Shown: positions 9,356 through 44,201 of the stretch, piece after piece | How positions within the stretch are numbered: the stretch's first letter is position 1 | Layout of the letters: every line of letters starts with the position of its first letter | Assembly: GCA_026394375.1 (NCBI GenBank) | Contig: JAPKYJ010000027.1 | Location: 62,001-126,000 of the forward strand | Length of the DNA stretch: 64,000 bases | Source of the DNA: Methanomassiliicoccales archaeon | GTDB lineage: Archaea > Thermoplasmatota > Thermoplasmata > Methanomassiliicoccales > UBA472 | Direction of reading: 5' to 3' | Position numbers and translations under genes: made by a program | Notes under the pieces: generated by a model | Databases searched by the model: none | Seen by the model: only the letters and a program-made list of their open reading frames with translations | What the model was told of the DNA's origin: nothing

Positions 9356-10057
9356 CTAGGCCAGGGAAGGTCCGAGTACCGTGAGGCCGCCCGGGCCCAC
9401 TTCGAAGGTGTGCCGCTCCATGGAGTGCTCGCAGGCGCGCATCTTCTCCACCCGCAGGTAGCGTGCCAGCTTCCCCCGGCTGCGGTCCAGCCCTAGCTCC
9501 ACTATGCCATCCACCAGGAAGCCTTCGTTGCCCAGCATGTCCGAAGGAGAGTTGGGCGCGCGCTCCATCACGATGAAGGACATGAGGTTCAGGTCCCTCA
9601 GGGTCTTGAAGAAGTAGAAAATCTTCTTGCGCATGCCGCTCGAGTCCTCCATGAGCGAGTACAGCGCGCCCAACGAATCGAGGGTGAAGACCGTGAAGCG
9701 CTCCCCATGCTTCTTGCGGTAGTAGGTGAGCATCTGCTCGACGAACTGGACGTAGTCGGTGGGCTTGTCTCCCTCCACGATCTCGTCCAGCTCCCTCAGG
9801 TCCGTGATGTCGGATATCTCTAGGTTGTCGGAGACCTGGAGGCCCAAGGACCGCATGTTGCGCAGATGCGATTCTCCCGTCTCTTCCAGAGTGATGTAGA
9901 GCCCGAACTCCTTGACCCTCTCCAGGTAGGTGGACATGAGCGAATAGCAGAAGCTGGTCTTCATGGAGCCCGGGGAGCCGGTGATGAGCACGACCTTAGG
10001 CGGCTCGATGTCCGTACGAAAGACCTTGTCCAGTCCGGGGATGGAGTTCTTGAACAT
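9356..10057 (-). CDS. RecA/KaiC-like ATPase (RAD55 superfamily)
   Basis: The protein begins with the KaiC-type entry sequence (SIPGLDKVF), followed by a Walker A motif GSPGSMKT near residue 27-34 and a glutamate-rich LEETGE segment. A Walker B-like strand ends in TLDSLGALY. This is the single-domain KaiC-like family common in archaea; these ATPases act in signalling or motility, and the role here is unknown. The reading frame is open to 10138, but the upstream 27 codons are basic and unlike the family, so the ATG at 10057 (MFKNSIPGLD) is the better start. An AT-rich minus-strand stretch (AAAAAGTATTACT) about 50 bp upstream could be the promoter. It is about 240 residues long, normal for the family. 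Confidence 0.85.
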   Translation of the reverse strand: MFKNSIPGLDKVFRTDIEPPKVVLITGSPGSMKTSFCYSLMSTYLERVKEFGLYITLEETGESHLRNMRSLGLQVSDNLEISDITDLRELDEIVEGDKPTDYVQFVEQMLTYYRKKHGERFTVFTLDSLGALYSLMEDSSGMRKKIFYFFKTLRDLNLMSFIVMERAPNSPSDMLGNEGFLVDGIVELGLDRSRGKLARYLRVEKMRACEHSMERHTFEVGPGGLTVLGPSLA

Positions 10058-10150
10058 GTGACCGCACCGCGCTCTGCCGATTGAATGCGGCCCGCGATAG
10101 TAATACTTTTTGCCATGACCGCTCGCCCGGCGGACCACGGGACTACCCGC

Positions 10151-13682: not shown

Positions 13683-16988
<3,306 letters not shown>

Positions 16989-18559: not shown

Positions 18560-18656
18560 AGGCAGGATGCCAACAAAACGTGCTCCCATTTAAAACTTTC
18601 TTGGTGCGCTCTCGAACGCGCATCGGCTTTGGGGCTCGAGGCCATCTGGGCACAAG

Positions 18657-18666
18657 CCATATATCG
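18657..18666 (+). promoter_or_regulatory. TATA-like element of the DnaA-type gene
   Basis: CCATATATCGG lies about 95 bp upstream of the GTG at 18757. It would place the transcript start near 18690, which argues against the more upstream start codons. Confidence 0.35.
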
Positions 18667-18756
18667 GACCTGGGCGATTTTGTCCTGATAGGCGTGCTGT
18701 TGGAGCTTGGAGTGCCAGAAGGGCAGGTCGTCGACAAGCATCGGGGTGGAGAGGGC

Positions 18757-20835
18757 GTGCTCAAGCGGGCGCTCGAGGACGTGCGTAAGTACGCCTTCTC
18801 CGGCTACCTAAAGCTCGATTTCTCTCTCAACGGCGATGTGGCCGAGGGCCTCATCACCTTCAATTCTGGAGAGCCTAGCATCGCCATCTATGCCTACCGC
18901 AAGGCTGGACCAGGGCGAGGGGAGAGAGCGTATCAGGGCGGCCGGGCGGCCGAGTTCATGTGGGAGGATTCCCTCTTCGTGGAGTCCTCGGTATCGTTGC
19001 ACTCCCGCGTATCGCTTTCCGAGGTGGAGCGCCGGTTCCCTGATGCCCGTGTGGGGCGGGTGGAGCTCATGCCACCTCCGTCCCTGACGAACCCTCGCCT
19101 CAAGGGCGAGACCCACCGCCTGGCAGGGAAGGAGGACCCGACCGCCCAGCGCATACTGGAGTGGGTGAAAGAGGGCTACAGCGTAGGCAACCTGATCCGA
19201 CTGTACACCAGCGACCCTCCGGCGGCGACGCGGGCCTTGCCCTATTTCGAGGCGAACATCCAGCGGCTCCAAGGCCTGGAGGAAGTGCTGCGGTTCCTGG
19301 ACACTGAAGGCTACGAACGGGAAGCGGAATCGCTCATGCGCCGCATGCGCGATCCCGAGAGGGTCTTGGACGTGGAGAGCGAACTCGAGGCATTGAGGAG
19401 GAGCATCGAGGGCTTCGAGGAGAAGGAAGCAGAGGAGGAGATCAAGCAGGACCAGGAGCGCAAGAAGGTTGATGAGAAGATTGACTCCGTCTACGACCTC
19501 ATCCTGCAGTACCACCGTCAGCTCACCTCAGGCGAAGCGCAGACCGCGAAGTGCGCGCGCTGCGGTGCCGCCCTGGACGGAGAGGGGAGATGCCCCACCT
19601 GCCCATCGGATGTCCCTCATTCCATTTTCGGGCGGGGCCTGAACTCTCGTTTCACTTTCGAATCCTTCGTCTCCGGTCCGGGGAACAAGTTCGCTGAGGC
19701 TGCGGCCAAGGCGGTGGCGGAGAGCCCGGGACGTTCCTACAACCCCCTGTTCATCTACAGCAAGAGCGGCTTGGGCAAGACGCACCTCATCCAGGCGATC
19801 GGCAACCATATCGCTGCACCTGGCTCCAAGAAGGTCATCTTCGCCCCCACGGAGACGTTCGAGAGCGACCTCATCGAGGCGGTGACCCGGAACAAGCTGG
19901 ACGAGATGCGCCGCGCCTACCGCGGGACGGACGCGCTGCTCCTGGACGACGTGCAGTTCCTGGCCGGGAAGGAGCGCATCCAAGAGGAGCTGTTCCAGAC
20001 GTTCAACGATATCCTGGAGCGGGGGGGACAGGTGGTCCTGGCCTGCGATCGTCCGCCCAAGGAGATTCCCTCGTTGGGGGAGCGCTTGATCACACGCTTC
20101 GAGTGCGGGCTGATAGCGGACATACAACCGCCTGACCTAGAAACCCGCCTGGCCATTCTAGAACGCCGATGCTCATCAGAGAGGCTCACCGTGCCGAAGG
20201 AGGTCCTGGCCTTCATCGCCGAGGTGTGCAAGGACAACGTGCGCCAGCTGGAGGGAGGGATGAACCGGGTGGTAGCCTTCTCCTCGCTCATGAATTCCCC
20301 CATCACCATCGAGCTTGCCCAGGATATCCTCAAGCAGGAAGAGCGCACCTCCAAGCGACCAACCCCGGTCCGGGTGGAGATGATCGCTGGCAAGAGCTAC
20401 CTCCTGGAGGAGGAGAAGCCCGAGCTCGCCTACCGACTGATGGCGGGGAAGGTGAGGGAAGGATATCAAGGACTGGCCATCGTCCGAGGACATCCCAAGG
20501 CACTGAAGCAGAGACTGGGTGAGGCGGAGGCGACGGTGCTCTGGCTCACGGACAAGGAGAGCAAAGGAGAGAAGACAGTACCTCCGTCCCTAGAAAGGAT
20601 CATGGTCACCATCGAGGAGTTCATCAAGGAGAGGAAGCGCTCCATCGTCCTATTGGACGATGTACAGTACCTCATCAGCAACACGACGTTCGAGGGCGTG
20701 ATCCGTTTCGTGCGCACCCTGGTGGATGAGGTCGCGGAGCGGGAGGCAATCTTCATCCTTTCCCTGGATCCCGAAGGCCTGAAGCCGCAGGAGAGGTCCA
20801 TACTGGAACGGGAAATGGAGGTCGTGCGCTCCTAG
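18757..20835 (+). CDS. DnaA-type AAA+ ATPase fused to DUF835, with zinc ribbon
   Basis: The frame is open from 18580; residue numbers here count from there. The GTG at 18757 (residue 60) has GGTGGAG seven bases upstream and is my preferred start. Domain order: an alpha/beta N-terminal region (60-160, similar in style to DUF2226/DUF4388); a charged helical region (190-310, coiled coil near 255-300); a zinc ribbon CARC...CPTC (325-341); a DnaA/Hda-type AAA+ module (about 356-590) with FTFESFVSGPGNKFA, Walker A SKSGLGKTH, Walker B ALLLDDVQFLAGK, sensor 1 VVLACDRPP, arginine region ERLITRFECG and sensor 2 KDNVRQLEGGMNR; and a DUF835 domain (600-750). The DnaA DNA-binding domain IV is absent. In Walker A the first Gly is Ser. 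Archaea normally use Orc1/Cdc6, so initiation is only one possibility; a signalling or loading ATPase is another. The gene stands alone, after the tRNA on the opposite strand. Confidence 0.85.
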   Translation: MLKRALEDVRKYAFSGYLKLDFSLNGDVAEGLITFNSGEPSIAIYAYRKAGPGRGERAYQGGRAAEFMWEDSLFVESSVSLHSRVSLSEVERRFPDARVGRVELMPPPSLTNPRLKGETHRLAGKEDPTAQRILEWVKEGYSVGNLIRLYTSDPPAATRALPYFEANIQRLQGLEEVLRFLDTEGYEREAESLMRRMRDPERVLDVESELEALRRSIEGFEEKEAEEEIKQDQERKKVDEKIDSVYDLILQYHRQLTSGEAQTAKCARCGAALDGEGRCPTCPSDVPHSIFGRGLNSRFTFESFVSGPGNKFAEAAAKAVAESPGRSYNPLFIYSKSGLGKTHLIQAIGNHIAAPGSKKVIFAPTETFESDLIEAVTRNKLDEMRRAYRGTDALLLDDVQFLAGKERIQEELFQTFNDILERGGQVVLACDRPPKEIPSLGERLITRFECGLIADIQPPDLETRLAILERRCSSERLTVPKEVLAFIAEVCKDNVRQLEGGMNRVVAFSSLMNSPITIELAQDILKQEERTSKRPTPVRVEMIAGKSYLLEEEKPELAYRLMAGKVREGYQGLAIVRGHPKALKQRLGEAEATVLWLTDKESKGEKTVPPSLERIMVTIEEFIKERKRSIVLLDDVQYLISNTTFEGVIRFVRTLVDEVAEREAIFILSLDPEGLKPQERSILEREMEVVRS

Positions 20836-20853: not shown

Positions 20854-21924
20854 TCAGACGTACTTGGCCTCGGACTTGAACTCGATGAGACGCTCTAGCG
20901 CCTCCTCCCACCTCTCCATCTTAGCGGCCATGCCCGCCTCCTTGAGCACCTTGATGAGCATGGATACGTCCTTTCCCTCCGCCTTGGCGTCGAGCAGTTG
21001 CGATCGGGCCTTCTTCAGCTCGCCGTTCAATATGTCCGGCAGGGTCTTGAGGATCTCCTCCCTTCCCTTTCTGGCCAGGATACCCATCATGCTCCAATCG
21101 CCGTGCTCACCAGCGTCCCTCGCCTCGGAGAGGAGCTTGCGGCCCTCGCGCACGTCCACGTAGAAGCGTTCGCAGCTCTGGATGAGCTTCTCCAACTGAT
21201 CGGAGAGCTCGCTCGCCTCGATGTACTTGCCCGTGAGCCTCTCGGCGGCCTTCTTGCCTTCTTGGGACTCGCGCAGGGCGCCCTCCAGGTCCGCATCCTT
21301 TCTCCTTTCCTTGATGCGGCCGATGGCCTCGCTGATGCTGACCGGGTCCGACCCAAGGGACTTGGCCACGTCCACCAATTTCTCCAGATATTGGACCTCC
21401 CGGTCCAGACGGGAATCGATGGCTGCCCGGATGCTCTCCCGGCATTCCTTGACGTAGCGCACGGCGGAGACGATGTCCTTCTGCTTGCCGGACCGGACCG
21501 ACTTGTCGATGAGGCGGCGTCCCTCCGAGGAGTCGATGCCATGCTCCTTGGCTAGGGTGAGGAGCGGTTTGACCTCCGCCACCATATCGGGGAACTGGCG
21601 ACGAAGCGCCCCTTCGTCCACCACGTCCTTGGGCTCCGGCTTGATCTTTTCCGGCTCCGGCGGCTTCGGCCCCTCCGACGCCGGCTTCGCTCCGGCTTCC
21701 TCGAACTCCGAGCCGCAATGAGGGCATTTGGCGGAGTCGGCGGGTATCATCTTCCCGCACTTGGGACAGGCGACCTCCGTCACCTCTTCGATGACGAACC
21801 CCACCCCGCACTTGGGGCATTTGGAGACCTCGCCCTTGATATGGATGCCGCATTCTGGGCAATCGAACTCGAACGCCTCTTCGTTCGCGCCGCTTCCCGA
21901 GGATATCTCAGCCAAATGGACCAC
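20854..21924 (-). CDS. Double zinc-ribbon protein with long helical domain
   Basis: The N terminus holds two zinc ribbons in tandem (CPEC...CPKC and CPKC...CPHC, about residues 20-75), then a Pro/Glu linker and about 250 residues of charged helices. The middle part (LAKEHGIDSSEGRRLIDKSVRSGKQ and the later AKSLGSDPVSISEAIGRIKE) looks like a duplicated helical module. The frame is open to 21984. However, a minus-strand TATA-like AGTTATTTTACC lies at about 21956-21967, so the true start is probably the GTG at 21924 or the TTG at 21915 (GGAGTGGT just upstream). No named family is recognised. It is convergent with the DnaA-type gene, with 18 bp between the stops. Related composition to 8174-9259 suggests a lineage-specific scaffold group. 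Confidence 0.75.
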   Translation of the reverse strand: MVHLAEISSGSGANEEAFEFDCPECGIHIKGEVSKCPKCGVGFVIEEVTEVACPKCGKMIPADSAKCPHCGSEFEEAGAKPASEGPKPPEPEKIKPEPKDVVDEGALRRQFPDMVAEVKPLLTLAKEHGIDSSEGRRLIDKSVRSGKQKDIVSAVRYVKECRESIRAAIDSRLDREVQYLEKLVDVAKSLGSDPVSISEAIGRIKERRKDADLEGALRESQEGKKAAERLTGKYIEASELSDQLEKLIQSCERFYVDVREGRKLLSEARDAGEHGDWSMMGILARKGREEILKTLPDILNGELKKARSQLLDAKAEGKDVSMLIKVLKEAGMAAKMERWEEALERLIEFKSEAKYV

Positions 21925-21980
21925 TCCAGTGTCGGGGGTGTCTATCGCCCAATGAGGTAAAATAACTGTCGTTGCGAACA

Positions 21981-22811
21981 TCATCGACCGCCCTTTCCTC
22001 TTCTCTGAGCGGAGAGCTGAACGATCATCTCCCTCGCGCCGTTCTCCGGGGCGGGCGTCTCGCTGATGATGGTCAGCTCACCTTTCCAGCCCCCCAGTGC
22101 GCGCACGAGCAAAGAGAAATCCGGCTGCCTCTCGCCCAGGGTCAGGTGCCTTCGCTCTCCTGCCTCGGTGAACTCGATGCACGAGTAGTGGGAGTGCAGT
22201 CTTCTGTTGCACATCGAACCTGCCTCTTCGAGCACGGCCCGGAATCGCTCCACCGAATCTAGGCTACCTCCAGAGCGGGCGTGCAGATGGGCGAAGTCCA
22301 CCACCGGCACCACCCCCTGCAGCTGGGAGGAGACGCCGGCGATCTCGGCCAGCGTGCCCCAGGACCCCCGCTTGCCCGTGGTCTCCAGGCCCAAGAGCAC
22401 CTCCTCCATCCCCTCCTGCTCCATGGTCCGCCGGCATTCCCTCAATCCGGTCAGAACCGCCCTGGTCGCTTTGCTCGGTTCACCGCCAGAATAGGAGGCG
22501 GCGTGGATGACCACCACGTACGCTTTCATCAGATGCGCCAGGCGAACGCTCTTCAACACCCATTCCCTGCTCTTGCGCACGGTCTCCGGGTTGAGGGAAT
22601 TGAAGTTGATGTAGTACGGTGCATGGACGCTCAGCAGTACGCCTAGCTCGTTCGCCCTATTCCCCAGGGCAATGGCCTTGTCCTCGGCCATGCGCGCCTG
22701 GCGCACGAACTGCACCTCCAGGGCGTTGAAGCCGAGCTTCGCGCAGCGCTCCACCGCATCCACCGGCCCCTTGCTGCCCTCAGGATAGCCGGCCGGTCCC
22801 ACCCGGATCAT
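21981..22811 (-). CDS. nfo: Endonuclease IV-like AP endonuclease (TIM barrel)
   Basis: The family cleaves the phosphodiester bond 5' to abasic sites in base-excision repair. The start MIRVGPAGYPEGS and the later segments LGFNALEVQFVR, LLSVHAPYYINFNS, VVIHAASYSGG, VLLGLETTGKRGSWGT, VVPVVDFAHLHAR and HSHYSCIEF follow the archaeal endonuclease IV pattern, with His/Glu/Asp metal ligands spread over the barrel. The long open frame upstream to 23318 is only the antisense of the next gene. The ATG at 22811 is chosen because family homology begins there. It is divergent from 22908, with an AT-rich stretch (GAGTTTAAATTGG) in between that could hold both promoters. An OGG1-type glycosylase gene lies 1.4 kb away. 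Confidence 0.85.
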   Translation of the reverse strand: MIRVGPAGYPEGSKGPVDAVERCAKLGFNALEVQFVRQARMAEDKAIALGNRANELGVLLSVHAPYYINFNSLNPETVRKSREWVLKSVRLAHLMKAYVVVIHAASYSGGEPSKATRAVLTGLRECRRTMEQEGMEEVLLGLETTGKRGSWGTLAEIAGVSSQLQGVVPVVDFAHLHARSGGSLDSVERFRAVLEEAGSMCNRRLHSHYSCIEFTEAGERRHLTLGERQPDFSLLVRALGGWKGELTIISETPAPENGAREMIVQLSAQRRGKGGR

Positions 22812-42903: not shown

Positions 42904-43470
42904 TCAAATCGTCAAAGTGTAGTCGCACACCAGTGCCAGCATCTCCTTGACCTCCGGCTTCAGGGAGTCGGGCAGAGAAAGCACCACCGGATATGCCTCC
43001 CTGACCTTGAGGGAGTTGAGGAGCACGGTGAAGAACTCCGAGAGCATCTTGATGTCGTTGTGGACGGCGAAGGAGTTCACGGAATCGATGATCACCAGTG
43101 CCTTCTTTCCCTCGTTCTGACGGGCGAAATACTCTACCTTCAGCACCACGTACTCCAGCATGCTCGGGCTCTCGACGTGCGCCACTCTCTCCCCTGGCTC
43201 TATCTTGCCCATGAGCGTGTGGGAGATGCAGTCCACGAAGCGAACGTCCTTGGTATCCACCTCCAGCGCCACGAGGGCATTGGATAGCGTGGATGATGGG
43301 ACCGAGGCAGTGATGTAGAAGCAGCACAGACCTTTGCGGGCGCTGAAGTCGTCCACCAGCCCGCGTATCACATCGAAATAGTTGTCGACCTTCAGCTCCA
43401 GCGCCACCGCCACCGAGGGGCCGATCTCCTCCAGTTTCGCGGCCACTTGCGCATGCAGCTCTTCGGCCAT
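42904..43470 (-). CDS. RecA/KaiC-fold protein without a Walker A motif
   Basis: The 188-residue protein has the RecA-like strand order (VIRGLVDDFSARKGLCCFYITASVPSST, VRFVDCIS, KKALVIIDSVNSFAVH) but no GxxxxGKT P loop. The Walker B-like aspartate in VIIDSVNS is kept. It looks like a degenerate partner of the KaiC-like ATPase just upstream; the genes share one base (TGATG). Whether it binds nucleotide is open; a regulatory subunit is likely. Confidence 0.7.
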   Translation of the reverse strand: MAEELHAQVAAKLEEIGPSVAVALELKVDNYFDVIRGLVDDFSARKGLCCFYITASVPSSTLSNALVALEVDTKDVRFVDCISHTLMGKIEPGERVAHVESPSMLEYVVLKVEYFARQNEGKKALVIIDSVNSFAVHNDIKMLSEFFTVLLNSLKVREAYPVVLSLPDSLKPEVKEMLALVCDYTLTI

Positions 43471-44201
43471 CAGCTCCCTCCTTTCAACAACGGGGTCACG
43501 AGTACACCGTACGACGTAAGATCGATCACGTACCTGGCCCGAGAGTGACTGGTGCCTTTCATCTTCACCACTTGCATGGTGCGCAGCAGGTCCCCCTTCC
43601 GGTCCAGGTTGCCCAGTAGCACGATGCCGTCCGACACCGCTGCCAGCATGCCGGAGGTTCCTCGGCTGGAGACCAGCATGGCGGTGCAGCCTTCCTTGTA
43701 CAGCACCTCGCTCAGACGGGTGAGGAGGATGGCATCCAGCGCCTCGTCCTTCACGTCCGTGAGGATCGTGTCCACGGTATCGATGACCAGGCGCGTGACC
43801 TTGGCGGTGGATACCACCTTTCCCAACGCCCCCACCAGCTTGTCCACCGCCGCCTCGTCCATCTGCGTGGGCGAGACTCCAGCTGACCTCAGGACCTCCG
43901 CCAGCTCCAGGATGGTGATCGTGCCCTTCTTGAACATCGCCTCTTTCAAGAAATCCAGCGGCGGGATGTTGGAGAGCAGCTTCTCCTGGCCTTCCTGCGT
44001 GGTCACCATGACCCCGGTCTCACCATGGACCGCTCCTCGGGCCAGGAACTCCATTGCCAGGGTGGTCTTGCCCGTGCCCGACGGGCCGGTCACCAGCACG
44101 ATATTGGAGGTGGGGATGCCCCCGCCAAGGACGTTGTCCAATCCATCGATGCCGGTGACGCATCTACCTCGCTGCGCGCTAGTGGCCATCGCCGGAGTCA
44201 T
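43470..44201 (-). CDS. KaiC-like ATPase (RAD55 superfamily)
   Basis: The KaiC start signature TGIDGLDNVLGGGIPTSNIVLVTGPSGTGKTTLAMEFL is complete with Walker A GPSGTGKT. A TTQEGQEKLL segment and Walker B LVIDTVDTIL follow. It is a single-domain KaiC-like protein of about 240 residues. The frame starts at ATG 44201, but a CTAATAATCC element at 44209-44220 (minus) would put the transcript start near 44188, so ATG 44189 (MATSAQRGRC) as a leaderless start is attractive. It is coupled to the RecA-fold gene downstream and stands upstream of the pilin gene. Confidence 0.87.
   Translation of the reverse strand: MTPAMATSAQRGRCVTGIDGLDNVLGGGIPTSNIVLVTGPSGTGKTTLAMEFLARGAVHGETGVMVTTQEGQEKLLSNIPPLDFLKEAMFKKGTITILELAEVLRSAGVSPTQMDEAAVDKLVGALGKVVSTAKVTRLVIDTVDTILTDVKDEALDAILLTRLSEVLYKEGCTAMLVSSRGTSGMLAAVSDGIVLLGNLDRKGDLLRTMQVVKMKGTSHSRARYVIDLTSYGVLVTPLLKGGS

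Follow-up and report, generated by a model that had tools for sequence, protein, structure and literature searches.

Why should an archaeon encode the ATPase of DnaA, a protein treated as the bacterial replication initiator while Orc1/Cdc6 is treated as the archaeal one (PMC11880632), and what might it use that ATPase for? The question is raised by one gene in a stretch of 64,000 nucleotides from a Methanomassiliicoccales genome (the window; positions 1-64000). Its nearest named relatives place the organism in the archaeal family Methanomassiliicoccaceae. A single long open reading frame, intact from 18580 to 20835 on the forward strand, contains the gene, which we place at 18694..20835 (+) with a GTG start and a product of 713 amino acids. 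The initial annotation had the gene on the same strand, running from 18757 to 20835; alignment with homologues, whose starts match 18694, indicates that its start was probably 63 nt late.

The AAA+ module of the protein, including its lid (residues 315-548; 19636..20337, +), corresponds to domain III of DnaA both by sequence and by predicted fold. The profile Bac_DnaA (PF00308) matches the window protein with 206 bits (E 5e-61). In phmmer searches of solved structures the AAA+ part found B. subtilis DnaA at 8e-77 and Hda at 2e-11, and the whole protein found DnaI at 3e-4. The complete module is 52% identical to clostridial DnaA by tblastn, as against 22-24% to Hda, and in Foldseek comparisons its model has TM-scores of 0.94-0.95 to domain III of the B. 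subtilis and T. maritima DnaA proteins (0.94 for 8bv3), as against about 0.7 to Hda. The full-length DnaA profile TIGR00362 gives 334.5 bits, just below its cut-off of 343.9, and the Hda profile TIGR03420 gives 97.8 bits, half of its cut-off of 194.8. Sequence, structure and profile therefore agree with the initial annotation that the AAA+ is DnaA-type, and a placement with Hda, with the DnaC/IstB group or with the STAND ATPases is rejected on the scores, DnaA exceeding 200 bits where the loader profiles reach 21 bits (IstB_IS21) and 22.6 bits (DnaI). The same comparisons make it very improbable that the protein acts as a DnaC/DnaI-like loader of MCM or that, in the manner of Hda, it inactivates some other AAA+ protein. 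DnaC and Hda do have the fold and the arginine fingers in common with DnaA (PMC3401641), and 17 of 38 relatives give a weak match to Hda_lid, but both sequence and fold lie much nearer to DnaA than to Hda or to the DnaC/DnaI loaders, and with one PF00308 match in the genome there is no DnaA on which an Hda could act. The protein resembles Hda (TIGR03420) in having a DnaA-like AAA+ and no domain IV; it differs in the low identity given above, and Hda is a short protein that acts on DnaA, a target absent from these archaea.

The protein has domain III of DnaA, yet it is not DnaA. The helix-turn-helix of domain IV (Bac_DnaA_C; PF08299) is absent from the window protein and from its whole genome, and it is not among the 25 commonest families matched in 38 relatives; DnaA_N (domain I) is not matched in the window protein. 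Where DnaA has domain IV there is a DUF835 domain (residues 575-708; 20416..20817, +), which PF05763 matches with 96 bits (E 2e-27; gathering score 33.1), a replacement that the initial annotation had already recognised. PF00308 and DUF835 occur together in 38 of 38 aligned relatives, so the architecture is not the result of chance, a frameshift or a chimaera. We do not count the protein as DnaA because domain IV is absent and because the evidence, considered below, opposes initiator status. Its likeness to bacterial DnaA (TIGR00362; PF00308) is confined to the AAA+ with its lid, all the ATPase motifs, the Box VII arginine and the sensor 2 arginine. Unlike DnaA, it has neither domain I, for helicase docking, nor domain IV, with the helix-turn-helix for the DnaA box; the first glycine of its P loop is often serine; its archaeal host uses Orc1/Cdc6; and it adds an N-terminal domain, a helical region, a zinc ribbon and DUF835.

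These additional regions, also anticipated in the initial annotation, are present in the window protein. Residues 1-125 (18694..19068, +) form an N-terminal domain, presumed to be sensory or to serve in docking, that is called DUF2226/DUF4388-like on the strength of weak Pfam matches in relatives (DUF2226 in 11 of 28, DUF4388 in 2 of 28); the N domain of the window protein itself matched no Pfam family, and Foldseek found nothing significant for it among solved structures. It is followed by a helical region (19069..19548, +; model helices at residues 138-278) that represents one copy of a repeat present in up to about eight copies in relatives from other Thermoplasmatota classes, and by a zinc ribbon of the form CxxC-x9-CxxC (C287, C290, C300 and C303; 19552..19602, +), all four cysteines of which are kept in 30 of 57 relatives. 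The AlphaFold2 model of the full protein has a mean pLDDT of 88.5 (94.5 in the N domain) and a pTM of 0.52, so that the predicted folds of the domains are trustworthy and their arrangement relative to each other is uncertain.

The residues expected of a working, oligomerising ATPase are conserved. Walker A reads SKSGLGKT (19759..19782, +), with serine in the place of the first glycine, as the initial annotation had remarked; 41 of 57 relatives share this serine and all 57 keep GKT, which makes the unusual Walker A a trait of the family. A damaged P loop, which would have told against a DnaA-derived ATPase, is rejected, the serine being family-wide and GKT being retained in nearly every relative. 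The two aspartates of Walker B (D418 and D419; 19945..19950, +) are present in 57/57 and 55/57 relatives, the Box VII arginine finger (R468; 20095..20097, +) in 53/57 and the sensor 2 arginine (R517; 20242..20244, +) in 54/57, and the window protein also shows Walker B as DDVQF, sensor 1, and sensor 2 as NVRQLEGGMNR. In a set of 79 DUF835-type sequences the Walker A lysine and threonine and the Walker B aspartates are kept, as are the Box VII arginine in 71 and the sensor 2 arginine in 74. The surface for single-stranded DNA behaves differently. At the positions that we take to be the ssDNA contacts of A. aeolicus DnaA (V156, K188 and R190), the members from Methanomassiliicoccales have a hydrophobic residue in 12/12, lysine or arginine in 12/12 and arginine in 11/12, and the other lineages among the 79 sequences have mostly polar or acidic residues. 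The ssDNA-contact surface of the A. aeolicus protein has been described (PMC3401641). Since the switch residues are kept across the family and the ssDNA contacts mainly in the window protein and the order to which it belongs, ATP-dependent assembly is likely to be a property common to the family, and binding of ssDNA is plausible only in part of it.

How widely is the protein distributed, and where did it come from? Within the class, about 109 of 301 genomes have an AAA+ of this kind (strong matches, counted by hand), usually in one copy. When 84,980 species genomes were scanned with the N domain, 47 loci emerged, each in a record named as an archaeon and nearly all in MAGs of Thermoplasmata, Thermoplasmatota or Euryarchaeota, and every complete gene among them shows both AAA+ and DUF835. 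That single pattern scan, which misses many true members, found the family nowhere outside Thermoplasmatota, and a scan of viral contigs with the AAA+ found no relatives. The initial annotation suggested a search for the same architecture in other Thermoplasmata genomes, and it recurs there in about 20 families. An assembly chimaera or bacterial contamination might be suspected from the predominance of metagenome-assembled genomes among the relatives; the uninterrupted frame of the fusion, the recurrence of the fusion and of the same neighbouring gene in those 20 or so families, the long contigs and the archaeal synteny make that explanation negligible, and we have rejected it. In a tree of the AAA+ the archaeal modules lie on one side of a branch and 12 bacterial DnaA proteins on the other, with an SH-aLRT of 89 once long branches are left out; members cluster by family, the backbone is weak and no bacterial donor is singled out. 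The simplest reading is one early capture of a bacterial DnaA in Thermoplasmatota, followed by vertical descent.

The module is found in other settings too. In family f18 a short form of 485-486 amino acids (L130-L133) consists of AAA+ and DUF835 with no N domain; the gene convergent with it encodes a multi-zinc-ribbon protein, which in L131 carries TPR repeats. Other Thermoplasmatota classes have a form of about 1,250-1,400 amino acids composed of the N domain, up to about eight of the helical repeats, the AAA+ and zinc ribbons (L166, L168 and L172), a form of about 425 amino acids with a charged, coiled-coil-like N terminus of the MGxxDWxxGxRKK type, and one DnaA AAA+ protein with zinc-finger-like N-terminal motifs; the last two lie among loci L167, L169-L171, L173 and L174. 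Two further families of the phylum encode proteins of 620-838 amino acids with a divergent DnaA-type AAA+ (about 60 bits to PF00308; L175-L177) that are unlike the DUF835 type. In one large single-contig genome (G026) fragments of a DnaA AAA+ lie at two separate sites (L134 and L135), either broken genes or assembly frameshifts.

The neighbour that accompanies the gene is a convergent partner (20854..21984, -) encoding two zinc ribbons, identified by Pfam, and a helical C-terminal domain; many relatives have three zinc ribbons in place of the two in the window. Among 83 distinct loci, each with at least 500 nt of downstream sequence, the partner adjoins the DnaA-AAA+ gene in 68, at a median gap of 10 bp, and this linkage persists where that to gyrB is lost. 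Over 100 genomes a good partner match was present in 54 of the 57 with the AAA+ versus 8 of the 43 without it, and 4 of those 8 carry an AAA-less form of the gene beside the partner. A family-level Fisher test of the co-occurrence, for which these counts and the input were tallied by hand from tables, gave p 2e-4, a value that is indicative only as it ignores relatedness.

The AAA-less forms amount to a natural experiment, in which the same locus has the AAA+ present or cut out, on what the switch contributes by itself. In three sister genera of the same family (g2, g3 and g4) the syntenic gene, flanked by thiC and the partner, has a product of 335-368 amino acids that comprises the N domain and DUF835 only; the helical region, the zinc ribbon and the AAA+ are missing and the DNA of the locus has no recognisable remnant of an AAA+. 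In a genome from another family (G015) the AAA+ is missing and the helical region and zinc ribbon are retained. AAA-less forms stand beside the partner at loci L150-L154, L157, L159 and L160. In a tree built from the N domain and DUF835 they fall in two separate places among the AAA+-bearing forms, and among 200 bootstrap trees the central 90% all show two changes of the AAA+ label, while no tree shows just one. The AAA+ has been lost twice, independently, and since the AAA-less syntenic genes keep the N domain, DUF835 and the partner, the scaffold persists without its ATPase.

These losses bear directly on replication. An Orc1/Cdc6 gene lies at contig position 129281 (window coordinate 67281), 3.3 kb past the end of the window and 47.6 kb from the DnaA-type gene; a spacing of about 41-48 kb recurs in several families, and the Orc1/Cdc6 profile is matched in 300 of 300 genomes. 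The double loss of the AAA+ with the rest of the protein kept, together with the presence of Orc1/Cdc6 in every one of those genomes, argues against an initiator role for the DnaA-type protein: the evidence is that the initiator here is Orc1/Cdc6. A subtler involvement is conceivable, in which the DnaA-like protein, brought by another of its domains or by the partner, binds or stretches melted origin DNA and so regulates initiation by Orc1/Cdc6 and MCM or the supercoiling activity of nearby gyrase. The intact ssDNA-contact residues in the window's order are in keeping with this, as is the position of the gene, at its distance from cdc6 and adjoining gyrBA in a conserved block. However, the gyrB-cdc6 block also persists where the gene or just its AAA+ is absent, so the arrangement is shared synteny and lends weak support to an origin role; we have rejected proximity to the origin, at 47.6 kb from cdc6, as strong evidence. 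With the AAA+ lost twice from a persisting scaffold, the ssDNA residues gone from most other lineages, no DNA-binding domain IV and gyrB unlinked in many families, we regard such a role as unlikely; the order to which the window belongs is where regulation of replication is most plausible.

The linkage with gyrase also invites a historical explanation. In many bacteria dnaA and gyrB adjoin, and gyrBA lies 1.6-6.6 kb upstream of the present gene, divergently oriented, in Methanomassiliicoccales and in families f8, f13 and f24. It might be supposed that dnaA and gyrBA arrived together from one bacterial donor and that the linkage is a relic. The orientation differs from the bacterial order, though, and the linkage is absent in f11, f19, f23, f27 and others. 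Moreover, a single transfer brought gyrase to the whole of group II Euryarchaeota (PMC9348778), and the one pattern scan found the present family only in Thermoplasmatota; the wider range of gyrase makes a joint transfer decidedly improbable. The suggestion in the initial annotation of a "gyrase-era" origin finds no support in this comparison, the linkage being partial, divergent and independent of the gene. Linkage to gyrase was likewise rejected as evidence of function, gyrB remaining at the locus in genomes that lack the gene or its AAA+. The gyrB gene of the window (13683-16964, -) contains an intein (Pfam Intein_splicing and an HNH homing endonuclease) that splits the Toprim region at about 14292-15548, and in several relatives the frame of gyrB or gyrA is over-long, which suggests additional inteins.

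What, then, does the protein do? The reading that we favour, with a probability of roughly 0.55, is that it is a regulatory or signalling protein in which a captured bacterial DnaA ATPase serves as an ATP-controlled assembly switch. Of the possibilities raised initially, that of a DnaA-derived regulator or a new signalling ATPase, with a DnaA-type AAA+ and domain IV replaced by DUF835, is the one to which the sequence points; the signalling role is deduced from domain composition and the conserved neighbour. To the initial account the analysis adds that conserved partner, the relatives that have lost the AAA+ alone and the further DnaA-AAA+ architectures in the phylum. DUF835 is listed as an inactive KaiC-like domain (iKaiC) and serves archaeal response regulators as an output domain (PMC5847659). 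Like the archaeal proteins with REC-DUF835 and REC-PAS-PAS-DUF835 architectures, the present protein has DUF835 at its C terminus as a presumed output or interaction domain; unlike them, its input side consists of the N domain and the AAA+. Binding of ATP would stack the AAA+ modules into a DnaA-like spiral through the Box VII arginine finger, under the control of the N domain, which would act by sensing or docking; the spiral, probably together with the zinc-ribbon partner, would display many copies of DUF835 to a target, and in the window's order it may also hold single-stranded nucleic acid. The retention of the ATPase and oligomer residues in the 79 DUF835-type sequences, the conservation of the partner and the separability of the AAA+ favour this assembly-switch model; weighing against it are the pTM of the model, the ssDNA residues kept in the window's order and the neighbourhood of gyrB and cdc6. 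A broader proposal, which we put forward tentatively and consider possible but doubtful, is that a single early capture made the DnaA ATPase a general ATP-driven polymer module found in four or more architectures (one having DUF835, another long helical repeats plus zinc ribbons, a third the charged coiled-coil-like N terminus and a fourth the zinc-finger-like N-terminal motifs), and that the Methanomassiliicoccales form continues to hold single-stranded nucleic acid beside the gyrase genes, forming a second, non-initiator DnaA system alongside Orc1/Cdc6.

We found no description in the open-access literature of DnaA in Thermoplasmata or Methanomassiliicoccales, or of DnaA joined to DUF835. 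The DnaA-like proteins of archaeal viruses, presumably much more distant, share with the present family a name, membership of the AAA+ superfamily and occurrence in archaea; the present family differs in being cellular and syntenic, in its DnaA-level identity and in its fusion to DUF835. The viral proteins are grouped as arCOG07960 (PMC4158269). A true DnaA ATPase that many archaeal families retain, ATP and oligomer residues included, without the DNA-binding domain of DnaA, separates the polymer switch of DnaA from replication, and "DnaA" annotations in archaeal genomes need not mean replication initiators. Across the whole window (1-64000) ARAGORN found no tRNA and no Rfam family reached its gathering score. 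The genome holds nine copies of DUF835, and the window contains two genes for ATPases of the KaiC family, at 9356-10138 (-) and 43470-44201 (-).
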